NCBI GenBank assembly: GCA_903902745.1
Contig: CAIUWA010000022.1
Location: forward strand, 1 to 64,000
Direction: 5' to 3'
Source of the DNA: an uncultured Opitutia bacterium
Lineage (GTDB): Bacteria; Verrucomicrobiota; Verrucomicrobiia; Opitutales; Opitutaceae
DNA length: 64,000 nt
In this document: positions 10,578 through 47,244 of the stretch, piece after piece
Layout: each line of letters begins with the position of its first letter
How positions within the stretch are numbered: position 1 is the first letter of the stretch
Position numbers and translations under genes: made by a program
The notes under the pieces: model-generated
What the model saw: only the letters and a program-made list of their open reading frames with translations
Database searches by the model: none
Told to the model about the DNA's origin: nothing

Positions 10578-10691
10578 TTCGCGCAGAGGCACAAAGGCGC
10601 AGCGCAAGGCAGGGAGATTTGGCAATCCGTACAGTTGATTTTTAACCTTTATCAGCCGGGATTGCTCTGCGTCTTTGTGCCTCTGCGCGAA
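10578..10691. repeat. Intergenic palindrome, family F copy 2
   Basis: TTCGCGCAGAGGCACAAAG (10578-10596) is perfectly inverted at 10673-10691, with further partial pairing inward. It sits within the pxpBCA gene group, between pxpC and pxpA. It leaves only about 38 nt before the pxpA start. Confidence 0.8.
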
Positions 10692-16258: not shown

Positions 16259-16321
16259 GCATTGCTGCTGAACTCTGGGCCAGGTCGCTGACCTGGCAGC
16301 CACTTCCGCGAGGTGGCCTAC
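16255..16321. repeat. REPIN-like repeat, family A copy 1 (decayed)
   Basis: This copy contains the hairpin GCCAGGTC-GCT-GACCTGGC (16279-16297) followed by an inverted GAGGTGGCCTAC half, as in the intact copies at 26275-26321 and 38866-38912. The left edge GTAG (16255-16258) supplies the transketolase stop codon, but about 18 nt of unrelated sequence separates it from the hairpin. Confidence 0.65.
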
Positions 16322-16369
16322 AGCGCGGCGGGCTGAAAGCGGCAGGTCGGAGACCCTCCCTACGCGGCC

Positions 16370-26209: not shown

Positions 26210-26274
26210 CATTTAAACCAGGCGATTATAGTTTGGAGGTGGCAGGGCCGGCAGCCGTCCGTGCGCGAAATGTT

Positions 26275-26321
26275 GTAGGCCACCTCGCTGAGGTGGCTGC
26301 CAGCCCAATGGGCTGGCCTAC
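26275..26321. repeat. REPIN-like repeat, family A copy 2 (intact)
   Basis: GTAG + GCCACCTC-GCT-GAGGTGGC, one base, then GCCAGCCC-AAT-GGGCTGGC + CTAC. These are two perfect hairpins in opposite orientation, bounded by GTAG and CTAC, exactly the layout of a REPIN (two inverted REPs). It ends 4 nt before the phytase-like gene stop. Confidence 0.85.
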
Positions 26322-26324
26322 AGG

Positions 26325-31749: not shown

Positions 31750-31989
31750 CGGAGGACGGAAGATCCGCCGTCGCCAAGGTTTACCCGCCTTTGGCGGCGC
31801 CGGAGGCGACCAGGGCTATGGCGGACAGGCAGGAGACAGGTATTTTCGGATTGGTGGCCGCGAAAAGGCGCAAAATATCCGTGCCTCCGACTCAAGTCAC
31901 CCGCGCGCCTATAGGCGCAATGGAGACACGGTCGTAACCCTTCGCCCTTGCGCCTTTTTGCGGCCAAACTGGATCGAAAAAATCCGTAT
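31750..31989. other. Intergenic repeat cluster
   Basis: This holds three things: the 16-mer GACGGAGGACGGAAGA (31748-31763) that also occurs inside smc; a fragment with CGCCAAGG...GGCGG and GCTATGGCGGAC, related to the internal part of the repeat at 1063-1171; and the family E palindrome at 31856-31965. No gene is seen. Confidence 0.6.
31856..31965. repeat. Intergenic palindrome, family E copy 1
   Basis: The arms are GGCCGCGAAAAGGCGCAA and TTGCGCCTTTTTGCGGCC. The centre contains the perfect palindrome GCGCCTATAGGCGC (31905-31918) followed by AATGGAGAC. Copies are at 33533-33650 and, inverted, 47126-47244. Confidence 0.85.
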
Positions 31990-33516: not shown

Positions 33517-33650
33517 GTAGGGACGGGCAGAGTTTTAGCCGCAAAAGGCGCAAAAATTCCCAAGGCTCCGACTCAAATTATCCGCGCGCCTATAGGCGCA
33601 ATGGAGACTCTGCCGCAGCTCCTGACCCTTTGCGTCTTTTAGCGGCTAAG
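33517..33650. repeat. Family E palindrome copy 2 with adjacent GTAG fragment
   Basis: The arms AGTTTTAGCCGCAAAAGGCG (from 33531) and TTTGCGTCTTTTAGCGGCT pair imperfectly around GCGCCTATAGGCGC (33586-33599). Immediately before it, GTAGGGACGGGC (33517-33528) is a fragment of the element whose full copy spans 34725-34908. Confidence 0.8.
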
Positions 33651-33711: not shown

Positions 33712-34728
33712 ATGACTCACGTACCCCGGTTTTTCCTCCTCGCCCTGATTTCTGTGTTCGCGCCCGCGGCGTTCGCGGCCGAGGTGGGCATCCGGCTCGA
33801 AGGCTATACGTACCCCTTTCCGGAAAAGGTTTATCGCTTCGAAAGCCAGCAGCAGCCGCTGGAAATGGTTTACATGGATGTCACGCCCGCCGGCACGGCC
33901 CGGGGCACGGTGCTGCTCCTCCATGGGAAGAATTTTTCCGGCTCGTACTTTGGACAGACGGCGGCGGCCCTGCGCGACGCCGGTTACCGGGTGATCATTC
34001 CCGACCAGGTCGGGTTCGGCAAATCGAGCAAGCCCGCCCACTATCAGTTCTCCATCCAGCAGCTGGCGCGCAACACGCGCGACCTGGTCACCTCGCTCGG
34101 GATCAGCCAGGTGCATGTGCTCGGGCATTCCATGGGCGGCATGATCGCGGCCCGCTTTGCGCTGCTGTTTCCCGCGACCACGGCCTCGCTCACGCTGCTC
34201 AATCCGCTCGGCCTGGAGGACTGGAAGGCCCTCGGCGTGCCGTACACCACGATCGACGAGAGTTACCGCGCGGAGCTGGCCAAGACGCCGGCGTCGATCC
34301 GCGCCTACGAGCTGGAGTCATACTATGATGGCAAGTGGCGGGATGCCTACGATCCGTGGGTGGAGCAGCTCGCCTCATTCAGCCTGAGCCCGGACTATCC
34401 GCGCATGGCCTGGGACCAGGCCCTGACCTTCGACATGATCTACACTCAGCCGGTGGTGCATGAGTTTGGCTCGATCCGGGTGCCGGCGTTGTTGATCATC
34501 GGCCAGCGCGACCGCACCGCGATCGGCAAGGCCCTCCTGCCGGTGGAGCAACGCGACCGCGTCGGAAACTATCCCGCCCTCGGCCGCGCCGCCCACGCCG
34601 CGATCCCGCATTCGGAACTCGTCGAGCTCGACGGGCTCGGCCACCTGCCGCACATCGAGGCGTTCGACCGGTTTTTCCCGCCGTATCGCGCGTTTCTGGA
34701 CCGGCAGACGGCAGGTTCAGCGAGGTAG
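33712..34728 (+). CDS. Exported alpha/beta hydrolase
   Basis: This 338-residue protein has a signal peptide (FFLLALISVFAPAAFA, cut near residue 23). Its alpha/beta-hydrolase fold has oxyanion-hole region LLLHGKNFSG (residues 68-77), nucleophile elbow GHSMGG with Ser140, acid in the IGQRDRTAIG region and His near the C-terminus (DGLGHLPHIEAF). It resembles epoxide-hydrolase or haloalkane-dehalogenase-type esterases that act in the periplasm. Substrate unknown. Its stop codon TAG is the TAG of a GTAG repeat edge. Confidence 0.9.
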   Translation: MTHVPRFFLLALISVFAPAAFAAEVGIRLEGYTYPFPEKVYRFESQQQPLEMVYMDVTPAGTARGTVLLLHGKNFSGSYFGQTAAALRDAGYRVIIPDQVGFGKSSKPAHYQFSIQQLARNTRDLVTSLGISQVHVLGHSMGGMIAARFALLFPATTASLTLLNPLGLEDWKALGVPYTTIDESYRAELAKTPASIRAYELESYYDGKWRDAYDPWVEQLASFSLSPDYPRMAWDQALTFDMIYTQPVVHEFGSIRVPALLIIGQRDRTAIGKALLPVEQRDRVGNYPALGRAAHAAIPHSELVELDGLGHLPHIEAFDRFFPPYRAFLDRQTAGSAR

Positions 34729-34908
34729 GGACGGGCGGCTCGCCCGTCCGTGAGGCCAGTCCGAGTTGCGGCTTGGTTGGTGGTGTCCGAATTGGGTAGG
34801 GCGAGGCGTCCCTGCCGAGCCGCGGTCTTGAACTGTGAGCTCGTCGAGCGGCTCACCGGGACGGTTCGCCCTACCCGCAAGCCCGGACGGGTGGGCCCCC
34901 GTCCCTAC
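34725..34908. repeat. Outer GTAGGGACGGG...CCCGTCCCTAC repeat interrupted by family B copy 3
   Basis: The left half has GTAG + GGACGGGCGGCTCGCCCGTCC, and the right half GGACGGGTGGGCCCCCGTCCCTAC. Between them sits a complete family B element (34796-34874). It looks like one palindromic element inserted into another. It fills most of the 300 bp between the hydrolase gene and smc; the rest shows nothing. Confidence 0.75.
34796..34874. repeat. GTAG...CTAC palindromic repeat, family B copy 3 (nested)
   Basis: The ends GTAGGGCGAGGCGTCCC and GGGACGGTTCGCCCTAC are nearly identical to those at 1063-1171. The internal palindromes are GAGCCG/CGGCTC and GTGAGC/GCTCAC. Confidence 0.85.
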
Positions 34909-35030: not shown

Positions 35031-38000
35031 ATGTATCTTAAGGCGCTCAAGCTTCACGGTTTTAAAAGTTTCGCTGATTCGACGACCCTCCGCTTTGAAC
35101 CGGGCGTCACCGCGGTGGTGGGGCCCAACGGTTGCGGCAAGTCCAACATCGCCGACGCCATCCGCTGGGTGCTCGGCGAGCAGAGCGCCAAGGCCCTGCG
35201 CGGCGGCAAGATGCAGGATGTCATCTTCGAGGGTGTCGACACGCGCCGCGCCGCCCAGTTGTGCGAGGTTTCCCTCCTGCTCACCGAGTGCGAGAAGCAG
35301 CTCGGCAGCGACTTCCACGAGATCGAGATCATGCGCCGCGTCTCGCGCGACGGGCAGAGCGAGTATTTTTTCAACGGCCAGGCCTGCCGCCTGAAGGACA
35401 TCCACCGGCTCTTCATGGACACCGGCATCGGCCGCACGTCCTACTCGATCATGGCGCAGGGCCAGATTGACCAGGTGCTCTCGTCCAAGCCCGAGGAGCG
35501 CCGCGCCGTGTTCGAGGAGGCCGCGGGCATCACGAAGTACAAGAGCCAGCGCCGCGAGGCGATGAACAAGCTCGCCCTGACTGACCAGAATTTGGCGCGC
35601 GTGTCCGACGTGATCGGCGAAGTGGCGCGCCAGATCGGCAGCCTCCGCCGGCAGGCCGCGAAAGCCATGCGCTACAAGCGCCTCAGCCACCGTCTCCGGC
35701 ATCTCAGCCTCGCGGCGAGCGGCTTCCAACACGGGCAGCTCGCGCGCATGCTCGGCGAGCTCGAGGGCCGGGTCGCCGCGCTGCGGGCCCAGGCGGATGC
35801 GCGCCGGGCCAGCCTTGAGGCGCAGCAGGGCACGCTCGACGAAAGGAAAGCCCACCGCAGCCGCCTGCACCAGCGCGTGCAGGACGCGCAGCAGGCGGTC
35901 TTCGACCTGCGCTCGCAAAAGGAAGCAGCCGAGAACGCCGCCAGCCTCGCGCAGATCAAGCGTACTGGCCTGGAGGACCGTCTGACTTCCTCGCGCGACA
36001 ACCTCGGCGAACTGGAGATGCAGCTCCGCGAGGTCACCGCTCAGGTCGACACCGGCGCGCAGGACAAGCAGCTCCAGCTCGGCCTGCTGGGCAGTTCGGA
36101 CGCCGTTTTCCAGCAGCGCAACCGCGATCTCGCGATCGCCGAGGGTGAACTCAGCAAGCTGGAGCAGGAGCTCCATCAGGCGAAGTTCCAGCTGCTGCAG
36201 TTTGAGAGCACCGTCGCGCGGCTGCGCACGGACTGCTCGGGCTACGAGGTCGACCAGAAGACCAGCGCCCACCGCCACGACCTCGTGGCGCAGGAGCTGG
36301 AGGGCGTGCGCGCCCAGCAGGTAACGGCCGCGCAGGTGGCCACGGAACTCAATGCGCGCAGCGAGGCCGCCGTGGGCGAGAAAACCCGGATCAACCAGGA
36401 GGCCGCTGCCGCCCAGCAGGCGATCACGGACCTCACGCGGGAATTCCGCGAGGCGCAGCGCAAGCTTTCGGAAACCGACCGCCAACTCGCGCAACGCAGT
36501 GCCCGGCTCAAGCTGCTCCAGCAGTTGCAGGAACGTTGGGAGGGCTTTGGTGAAGGCGCGAAGGCGGTGCTGCAGGGCCGGCTCGATTCCGCGCTGGCGG
36601 GCAGCAAGGCCGTGCCGGTGATGCACGGGCTCGACGTGAAGCCCGAATTAGGCCGCGCGGTCGAGGCGCTGCTCGGCTCGGCGGCCGAGGCGATCAGCGT
36701 GAGCGATGTCGCCACCGCGAAGCGCATCCTGGCGCAGCTCGAGGGCGAGCAGCTGGGATCGGCGGTGCTGCGGGTGGGGGACTGCGGACTGCCGGCTGGC
36801 CAAGTGGCGAATTTGCCGGCGGGGCTCGTGCCGGCGGCGAGCGCGCTCGGCGCGGTCGACGAAAAACATCCCGCGACCGGTCTGCTGGCGGAATGCTACA
36901 TCGCCGACGACCTCGGTGCGTTCCTGGAATTCTGGCAGGCGAACCCCGGCTTCGGGTTTCTCGCCGTGGCTACGGCCAAGGGCGAGGTGGTTGACCGTCG
37001 CGGGCTGGTCTCCGGCGGATATCAGAGCGCCAAAAAGCAGGCCCACAGCATCGTGCAGCGCGAGATCGACCTGCGCGAGACGGCGAAGGCGCTCGTCGAC
37101 GAGCAGAGGGCGCACGACGAGCAGAAGGCGCAGATCGACGCGATCAGCGTCCGGCTGGCGACGGCGGAGCAGACTTTGGAACAGCGCCGGGCCGACGTGC
37201 TCGCGGCCACGCAGACGTTGGCGTCCGTGCAGGCTGAGCAGCGCAACGCCCAGCGAGCCCTCGAGGAGGTCGTGACCCGGCTCCGCCGCATGGAAGGCGA
37301 ACTCGTCGCCGTGGAACAGGCCCGCAATGAGGCGCATGCGCGCTGGGAAAAGGCCCAGGCCGGGCTGACCGCCGCCGAGACGGCCGCCACCGCGCAACGG
37401 GAGAAAATTTCCAAGCTGGAGACCCGGCTGGAGCAGATCCGCACCGACCGCGACGTGAAGCGCGAGTCGCTCGCGCAGGCCCGCCTCGAGCTGGCCGAGC
37501 GCCGCCAAAAGGTCGAGGTGCTCGACCGCGGCCTGGGCGAGATGGAGAAGCGGCGCCAGCAGCTCATGGAGCTGTTGACGCAACGCCAGCACGAGATTGA
37601 GGTCTGGACCGAGCAAACCGGCGAGCTGGAGCAGGAGTCGTCCGCCCAGCGGGCGCAGGCCGGCCAGATTGCCGGGACGCTGGTTGTCGCCCAGGAGCAG
37701 GTGGAAAAAATCCGCGTCGAGCTGGCGGGGATCGAAAAGGAAATTTCCGGCCTAGAAGCCGCGCAGACCGGGGTGCGCGCGGAGTCCGACGCCGCGCACG
37801 ACGAACTCAGCACGCAGGAAGTCAAACTGGCGGAAAGCCGCCAGCGCACGCAATTCCTCGCCGAGGAGGCCACGCGCGAGTTCCAGACCGATCTGGGGAC
37901 TGTCGATTGGAAGAACCTGCTTTGGCAGGCCGACAGCGAGCCGGAGGGGCTGAAGGCGCTGGATCTGGATGAGGATGAAGGGGAGGACGGGGCGAAGCCA

Positions 38001-38843
38001 GAGGACGGAGGACGGAAGACGGAGGACGGGGGGGCTGAGCCCAAGCGCAGGCGGAAGGCGAAGGGGCCGAAGGGGGAGGCGACGGAGGCCGACCTGGCGG
38101 CGCTGGATGCGACCAAGTGGGATGAGGTGAAGGTGGAGGTCGATGCGCTGCGGCTGCGCCTGAATGGCATGGGCGCCGTGAACCTCGTGGCCATCGAGGA
38201 ATACTCCGATCTCAAGCAGCGGCACGATTTCCTTCAGACCCAGTGCGGCGACCTCACGAGTGCCAAGGCCGACCTGCTCAAGATGATCGATGAGATCAAC
38301 CAGACCTCGCAGAAGCAGTTCGAGGTAACGTTCGAGCAAATCAAAAAGAACTTCGTCTACACCTTCCAGACCCTCTTTGGCGGCGGCCGCGCCGGACTGG
38401 AGCTGGTCCAGGCCGAGGACATCCTGGAAAGCGGCATCGAGATCGTGGCCCAGCCGCCGGGCACCAAGCTGAAGGGCATCTCGCTGCTCTCCGGCGGCCA
38501 GAAGACGCTCACCGCCGTGGCGCTGCTCTTTGCGCTCTACATGGTGAAGCCGTCGCCGTTCTGTCTGCTCGACGAGCTCGACGCGCCGCTGGACGAATCA
38601 AACATCGGCCGCTTCACGGACCTCCTGAAGAAATTTGTGAGCGAGTCGCAGTTCATCATCATCACGCACAACAAGCGGACGGTGGCGGCGGCGGACGCGA
38701 TCTACGGCGTCACGATGGAGGAGCGTGGCGTGTCGAAGACCGTTTCGATGCGCTTCGACCACGAGCGCGGCGAGGCGGAGGTGCAGGCGCCGACGATCGC
38801 CGAGTCTGTTTCCGGCGCGAAGCCGGTCGGCGCGGGGGCGTGA
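35031..38843 (+). CDS. smc: Chromosome segregation protein SMC
   Basis: This 1270-residue condensin ATPase works with ScpA (encoded about 0.8 kb downstream on the other strand) and ScpB (not in the window). The N-terminal head has YLKALKLHGFKSF and Walker A GPNGCGKS (residues 31-38). Two coiled-coil arms flank the hinge (about residues 510-680). The C-terminal head has LLSGGQKTLTAVALLFA (about 1153) and Walker B FCLLDELDAPLDESN (about 1177). It is longer than usual (near 1190) because an acidic then lysine-rich stretch, about residues 980-1026, is inserted before the C-terminal head. The ATG at 35031 matches the conserved start. Confidence 0.97.
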   Translation: MYLKALKLHGFKSFADSTTLRFEPGVTAVVGPNGCGKSNIADAIRWVLGEQSAKALRGGKMQDVIFEGVDTRRAAQLCEVSLLLTECEKQLGSDFHEIEIMRRVSRDGQSEYFFNGQACRLKDIHRLFMDTGIGRTSYSIMAQGQIDQVLSSKPEERRAVFEEAAGITKYKSQRREAMNKLALTDQNLARVSDVIGEVARQIGSLRRQAAKAMRYKRLSHRLRHLSLAASGFQHGQLARMLGELEGRVAALRAQADARRASLEAQQGTLDERKAHRSRLHQRVQDAQQAVFDLRSQKEAAENAASLAQIKRTGLEDRLTSSRDNLGELEMQLREVTAQVDTGAQDKQLQLGLLGSSDAVFQQRNRDLAIAEGELSKLEQELHQAKFQLLQFESTVARLRTDCSGYEVDQKTSAHRHDLVAQELEGVRAQQVTAAQVATELNARSEAAVGEKTRINQEAAAAQQAITDLTREFREAQRKLSETDRQLAQRSARLKLLQQLQERWEGFGEGAKAVLQGRLDSALAGSKAVPVMHGLDVKPELGRAVEALLGSAAEAISVSDVATAKRILAQLEGEQLGSAVLRVGDCGLPAGQVANLPAGLVPAASALGAVDEKHPATGLLAECYIADDLGAFLEFWQANPGFGFLAVATAKGEVVDRRGLVSGGYQSAKKQAHSIVQREIDLRETAKALVDEQRAHDEQKAQIDAISVRLATAEQTLEQRRADVLAATQTLASVQAEQRNAQRALEEVVTRLRRMEGELVAVEQARNEAHARWEKAQAGLTAAETAATAQREKISKLETRLEQIRTDRDVKRESLAQARLELAERRQKVEVLDRGLGEMEKRRQQLMELLTQRQHEIEVWTEQTGELEQESSAQRAQAGQIAGTLVVAQEQVEKIRVELAGIEKEISGLEAAQTGVRAESDAAHDELSTQEVKLAESRQRTQFLAEEATREFQTDLGTVDWKNLLWQADSEPEGLKALDLDEDEGEDGAKPEDGGRKTEDGGAEPKRRRKAKGPKGEATEADLAALDATKWDEVKVEVDALRLRLNGMGAVNLVAIEEYSDLKQRHDFLQTQCGDLTSAKADLLKMIDEINQTSQKQFEVTFEQIKKNFVYTFQTLFGGGRAGLELVQAEDILESGIEIVAQPPGTKLKGISLLSGGQKTLTAVALLFALYMVKPSPFCLLDELDAPLDESNIGRFTDLLKKFVSESQFIIITHNKRTVAAADAIYGVTMEERGVSKTVSMRFDHERGEAEVQAPTIAESVSGAKPVGAGA
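38004..38030 (+). repeat. GGACGGA-type tandem repeat inside smc
   Basis: Iterations of GGACGGAGGACGGAAGAC encode EDGGRKTEDGG in the smc insertion. The 16-mer GACGGAGGACGGAAGA is also present at 31748-31763, outside any gene. A degenerate relative is in glgB at 49409-49432. Confidence 0.6.
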
Positions 38844-38865
38844 GGGTGGGGTGGGTGACTGCGCT

Positions 38866-38912
38866 GTAGGCCACCTCGTTGAGGTGGCAGCCAGGTCAGC
38901 GACTTGGCCTAC
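38866..38912. repeat. REPIN-like repeat, family A copy 3 (intact)
   Basis: GTAG + GCCACCTC-GTT-GAGGTGGC, then AGCCAGGTCAGCGACTTGG + CCTAC. The left hairpin differs from the copy at 26275-26321 at one loop base. It lies between the convergent smc and trxA genes. Confidence 0.85.
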
Positions 38913-38932
38913 AACGGATTCTGTCCGGACAC

Positions 38933-44139: not shown

Positions 44140-44230
44140 GTTTCACGCGAAGCCGCGAAGCTCGCGAAGTCAGTCGGGCTTGGCTTCGATCCCAATAAAA
44201 CTTCGCGAGCTTCGCGGCTTCGCGTGAAAC
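44140..44230. repeat. Perfect 30-bp inverted repeat, family F copy 5
   Basis: Positions 44140-44169 and 44201-44230 are exact reverse complements over 30 bp, separated by 31 nt. The arms begin GTTTCACGCGAAG and end CTTCGCGTGAAAC. It sits in the divergent control region between lptD and ppc. Confidence 0.95.
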
Positions 44231-47125: not shown

Positions 47126-47244
47126 TTTAGCCGCAAAAAGGCGCAAAAATTCGTGGGCTGCGACGGGAGTCTCCATCGCGCTTATAAGCGCACGGGACAT
47201 TCGAGATGGAGCCCCGGACTCTTTTGCGCCTTTTTGCGGCCAAA
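47126..47244. repeat. Intergenic palindrome, family E copy 3 (inverted)
   Basis: The arms TTTAGCCGCAAAAAGGCGC and GCGCCTTTTTGCGGCCAAA surround GCGCTTATAAGCGC (47178-47191). It is oriented opposite to the copies at 31856 and 33531 (GTCTCCAT precedes the central palindrome instead of ATGGAGAC following). It lies between ppc and glgB. Confidence 0.88.

Follow-up and report, generated by a model that had tools for sequence, protein, structure and literature searches.

A family B GTAG-type REPIN probably lodged in the spacer of a family A REPIN in an uncultured Opitutaceae genome

In the stretch of 64,000 nucleotides analyzed here (the window, from an uncultured Opitutia bacterium), positions 34725–34908 are best explained as a nest of two GTAG-type REPINs from different repeat families, one of family B having settled in the spacer of one of family A, with a probability of roughly three in four. 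Read directly from the sequence, the B element stands complete within the spacer of the A element, and its span is 34796–34874, as an earlier reading from the sequence alone (the sequence-only reading) had it. A and B are separate repeat families, in each of which two REP hairpins tagged with GTAG face each other in inverted orientation, and they occur apart in the same genome. In a congener, the A pairs are either short or long, and inside the long ones lie repeats from further families, which are found outside A as well. The features of the region are the following.

33517–33528, plus strand: fragment of 12 nt resembling the start of an A REP, GTAGGGACGGGC, without hairpin
33712–34728, plus strand: alpha/beta hydrolase gene, ending in a TAG stop codon that it shares with the outer GTAG
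34725–34749, plus strand: left REP of outer element A, GTAGGGACGGGCGGCTCGCCCGTCC, with GTAG, a 9-bp stem and a 3-nt loop (a perfect 9-bp hairpin)
34750–34795, no strand: left part of the outer spacer of A, 46 nt
34796–34821, plus strand: left REP of inner element B, with GTAG, 3 bp, tandem G.A mismatches, a GC-rich stem and a TCC-type loop
34822–34849, no strand: center of B, 28 nt here; in the congener, 17 of the 19 B copies listed are 53 nt long and have a center of 2 nt
34850–34874, minus strand: right REP of inner element B, read from the sequence
34875–34884, no strand: right part of the outer spacer of A, 10 nt
34885–34908, minus strand: right REP of outer element A, GTAGGGACGGGGGCCCACCCGTCC, a 9-bp stem with one mismatch
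35031–38843, plus strand: downstream gene for an SMC-like chromosome segregation ATPase, named from the sequence and not from a family search

All four arms (left and right, in A and in B) consist of GTAG beside a short imperfect hairpin, as REPs do, a point overlooked in the sequence-only reading. Each "palindrome" is thus a pair of REPs, since each arm is itself GTAG with a hairpin. In both arms of B, the imperfect hairpin contains two tandem G.A mismatches. The REPs of A, like those of B, form a head-to-head doublet able to fold into one hairpin, which makes both of them REPINs. There is one pair per family only, and not the alternating array of several REPs of the same family that characterizes a BIME. 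The outer junctions (...GAATTGG/GTAG...CTAC/CCGCAAG...) do not contain the direct repeat that the sequence-only reading had suggested looking for; a MITE with target-site duplication is therefore not what is seen. The fragment of the outer element assigned by that reading to 33517–33528 does occur there, without the half that would form the hairpin.

The 184 nt fold well above shuffled versions (z-score of −5.57, with none of 200 shuffles equally stable). They lie between the hydrolase gene and the SMC-like gene, about 120 nt upstream of the start of the latter, and include the stop codon of the former. Among the copies of A and B, this intergenic placement is seen for the copy in the window only. 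The good fold, the short distance to the next gene and the stop codon inside could be those of a conserved RNA or DNA signal, such as a terminator or an mRNA-stabilizing hairpin, instead of a mobile nest. Such a signal is very unlikely. There is no Rfam family for the nest (the best hit, to a miRNA, is far under the gathering score) and no terminator or promoter pattern was found inside it; its parts recur elsewhere in other combinations, and neither congener has it at this gene border.

In one congener (G002), a hydrolase with 89% identity and the SMC gene occur in the same order; they are separated by about 1.8 kb, which include another gene, and the part of that interval that was read shows no GTAG repeat pair. 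In the window, the stop codon of the hydrolase (34726–34728) is supplied by the REP, and the protein end differs from that of the G002 orthologue. In the other congener (G001), there is no match to the hydrolase, and a transporter gene directly precedes the SMC gene. Because the gene order differs in both congeners, neither provides an empty site at this locus, and the relative with an empty outer element proposed as a check by the sequence-only reading was not found there. In the search of contigs with the hydrolase, CAIKHO010000042.1, which is the G002 record (an uncultured Opitutae bacterium), matched at 89%; the others among the 80 loci retained are relatives with at most 68% identity. The start of the SMC gene is matched in 51 of the 57 genomes searched. 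Upstream of it, at the 25 loci with a recognized start (of 30 returned), the nest was seen by eye in the window only. At the G002 counterparts of two B sites on contig C16, B is absent, but the sequence between the genes has diverged too far to define an empty site to the base.

The genome of the window (3.29 Mb in 52 contigs, 98% complete) contains many copies of each family. The A motif GTAGGGACGSGC has 18 exact matches, vs. one for the reversed-letter control, and GTAGGGACGGG occurs 17 times, again vs. one for its control; B has 57 BLAST matches. The 18 A matches resolve into seven pairs without insert, the nested pair (with one exact arm) and eight singles. Six of the insert-free pairs measure 64, 98, 84, 90, 82 and 82 nt, and the seventh is 51 nt from its match positions. 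Under a strict pattern (30 loci), 17 B copies are full length, each preceded by G and followed by C; their flanks are otherwise mostly unlike, with A and C recurring somewhat on the right, and their lengths are 75–79, 108–109 or 127 nt. The possibility raised by the sequence-only reading, a single longer element whose copies all have the same outer and inner parts, is rejected, with seven A pairs without insert and B alone at many sites in the same genome. The nest at 34725–34908 is the only clear one seen in this genome.

At G000:C22:88298, in the genome of the window, the alignment with G002 places a REP between orthologous genes at the same position in both. The stem letters have changed and the hairpin pairing is largely kept, so this REP is old, and its pairing may perhaps be maintained. 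After the SMC gene in the window, 38865–38913 is a REPIN of a third family (GTAGGCCACCTCG...), whose place is conserved in G002 and to which the copies at 16274–16322 and 26274–26322 are related. Repeats of other families and inverted repeats occur at 31857–31968, 33538–33650 and 47130–47244, at 10578–10691, and at 44140–44230.

The A spacers are not conserved in the genome of the window, and the outer spacer pieces at the nest resemble no conserved spacer there. Two independent single A REPs that inserted around a B REPIN already in place, and so mimic a split pair, are therefore compatible with the sequence alone. Singles make up eight of the 18 exact A matches, and the nest spacer after removal of B is 56 nt, above the other A spacers measured in this genome (13–47 nt). 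We nevertheless consider this arrangement improbable. At the density observed, two inverted single A REPs around one B would be a rare coincidence (our own estimate, and not a computed value), and the A pairs of the congener G001 recur with unrelated repeats between the arms and with split-spacer pieces near the length of an empty spacer.

The congener G001, a genome of the same genus, is 72% complete in 740 contigs, so that assembly errors are possible. It has 135 A matches, vs. none in G002. The A counts that follow rest on the 100 of these 135 matches that were listed, reduced to 83 non-redundant cases by dropping rows in which the same dimer was reported from both arms. These are 47 head-to-head pairs, 33 singles and three cases at contig edges. 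Among the 47 pairs, 16 are 76–95 nt long, two are 96–150 nt and the other 29 are longer than 150 nt. A motif of D (GAGGTGGARCGCGTTG...), E (ACAGGAGGAATACCGAG...), F (CACCACAAAGGCAC...), B or C/H is present in 26 of these 29 long pairs. This sister species has many such nests. Motifs of other families have a density of 5.5 per kb inside the A pairs vs. 1.2 in the 200-bp outer flanks, with D, E and F picked after they had been sighted inside A. The C/H repeats alone show no such excess (four inside A pairs vs. 12 in the longer outer flanks). A fairer test is the count of D from its own genome search (contigs up to C542, 100 of 130 G001 matches). Among the 79 D elements so listed, 16 lie on the inner side of an A REP (within 220 bp) and two on the outer side, for a one-sided sign probability of 6.6e-4. 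D occurs 17 times in the genome of the window and 13 times in G002; the corresponding counts for E are one and three. Since D and E are present in G002, where A has no match, these inner families do not depend on A. In G001, AAG precedes 75 of 100 A and 28 of 46 B elements; in the genome of the window, it is rare (one of 18 A and four of 42 B). The statement in the sequence-only reading that the palindromes move as units is supported in part. The nesting of independent families is well backed by this congener; an empty outer element was not found at this locus in either congener, and the junctions have no target duplication.

The split spacers bear on the direction of insertion. Nine cases of D inside A were found in G001, of which the compound L274 and L294 and the unmeasured L308 are excluded from the sums of the pieces. 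In the six simple cases, the left piece ranges from 0 to 29 nt, and adding both pieces gives 27, 14, 36, 19, 19 and 15 nt, vs. 26–28 nt in 12 of 16 empty spacers. These values fit an entry of D into A at several points, sometimes with loss of spacer. E and F are in most cases flanked by two inverted halves of the A spacer, so that for both insertion and joint amplification look alike. Among the 19 B copies listed in G001, 17 are uninterrupted 53-mers; at L250, a B copy is interrupted at its center by a REPIN of the third type.

A layout like that of the nest recurs in G001 at L347. There, a left A arm is followed by 47 nt ending in AATTG, by B in the same orientation, by 9 nt and by a broken A arm, of which the first bases only are present. 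The counterpart in the window has 46 nt ending in AATTGG, then B, then 10 nt. This recurrence of order and distances at another locus argues further against two single A REPs having met around one B. It is also what one expects if A[B] were a composite that arrived as one unit of 184 nt, with B having entered A once, elsewhere. Compared with the left spacer in the window, the L347 spacer scores best of 98 A spacers among the G001 matches listed (6.0, with the next at 2.5), and the BLAST match is continuous through A, spacer and B (77% over 106 nt). No similarity to the contig of the window (C22) was found in the genes neighboring L347, as would be the case for a unit that moved. On the other side, there are just two known copies, and L347 has a broken right A arm; the spacers resemble each other weakly, with 62 of 5000 shuffles reaching the same score (about p = 0.01), and the REPs themselves give much of the BLAST score. 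L347 weakly suggests, from sequence comparison, that A[B] may have moved as a unit. The arrival of the whole as a composite is rather doubtful as the account of this locus; it is a sub-version of the reading in which a B REPIN lodged in an A REPIN, and the two overlap.

A candidate mover exists in the genome of the window. A RAYT gene, for which the sequence-only reading advised a search, was found as the one Y1 transposase of this genome, on contig C11 (L001, 1363–1878). The protein passes the NCBIfam model NF047646 for REP-associated tyrosine transposases (87.4 bits, for a cut-off of 80) and matches Pfam Y1_Tnp as well as 4ER8, the TnpA-REP protein of E. coli (E of 2.4e-7). The gene is flanked by inverted GTAG REPs (GTAGGGCGCGGACTCCG...), as RAYT genes are, and itself occupies the spacer of this inverted pair. 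These flanking REPs are neither A nor B, and B has only GTAGGGCG in common with them. Because they represent a third stem type, the RAYT is not tied to A or to B. Matches to Y1_Tnp occur in 43 of the 57 genomes searched, and none was found in the congener G002 (97% complete). In the stretches of G002 that were read, GTAG hairpin pairs are present, though no Y1 transposase was found.

GTAG-type REPs, their dimers and RAYTs have been described, with Opitutus terrae named as highly enriched in GTAG repeats (Di Nocera et al. 2013, PMC3733652). As in A and B, the REPs described there have a GTAG end, a short stem, a loop mostly of 2–4 nt, head-to-head dimers and variable spacers. The same paper notes interleaved repeats in Neisseria and, for a few species, REP dimers that have inserted into longer palindromes. 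Its authors did not find the surrounding palindrome without the dimer in A. variabilis or H. neapolitanus (PMC3733652), whereas in the present case each layer is itself a REP dimer and each also occurs free. In the REPINs of Pseudomonas fluorescens, likewise, the inverted REP doublet is the mobile unit and the RAYT the proposed mover, and, according to its authors' suggestion, DNA that inserts into REPINs may give rise to singlets (Bertels and Rainey 2011, PMC3116915); the sections of that article drawn on here do not describe a REPIN nested in a REPIN. REPs also serve as landing sites for other mobile DNA, namely IS elements that target them. Those inserts carry transposase genes (Tobes and Pareja 2006, PMC1525189), whereas the ones here are palindromes without genes. 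Among the open-licence papers searched, none describing nested REPINs as such was found. The kind of REP is already known, and the layering is a modest extension, unusually clear here.

For a B REPIN lodged in an A REPIN, the mechanism would be as follows. A single-strand transposase of the RAYT type would act on the GTAG hairpin ends of REPINs and so move them. Between the two REPs, the unpaired spacer would tolerate, or attract, further insertions, and layers would build up. At this locus, A would have come first and B later. For the genus, one may tentatively propose that the center of a REPIN is a preferred landing site for unrelated palindromes, and that nests such as A[B] are moved whole by their outer REP ends; this possible but not favored extension would give RAYT-type ends with changing cargo and layered elements. 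Nests of this type record the order of insertion and show REP doublets acting as units, a point for which the case otherwise relies mainly on copy statistics. A genus with A pairs both empty and filled by several families would offer a direct test of REP spacers as targets, and of RAYT ends as carriers of foreign DNA.
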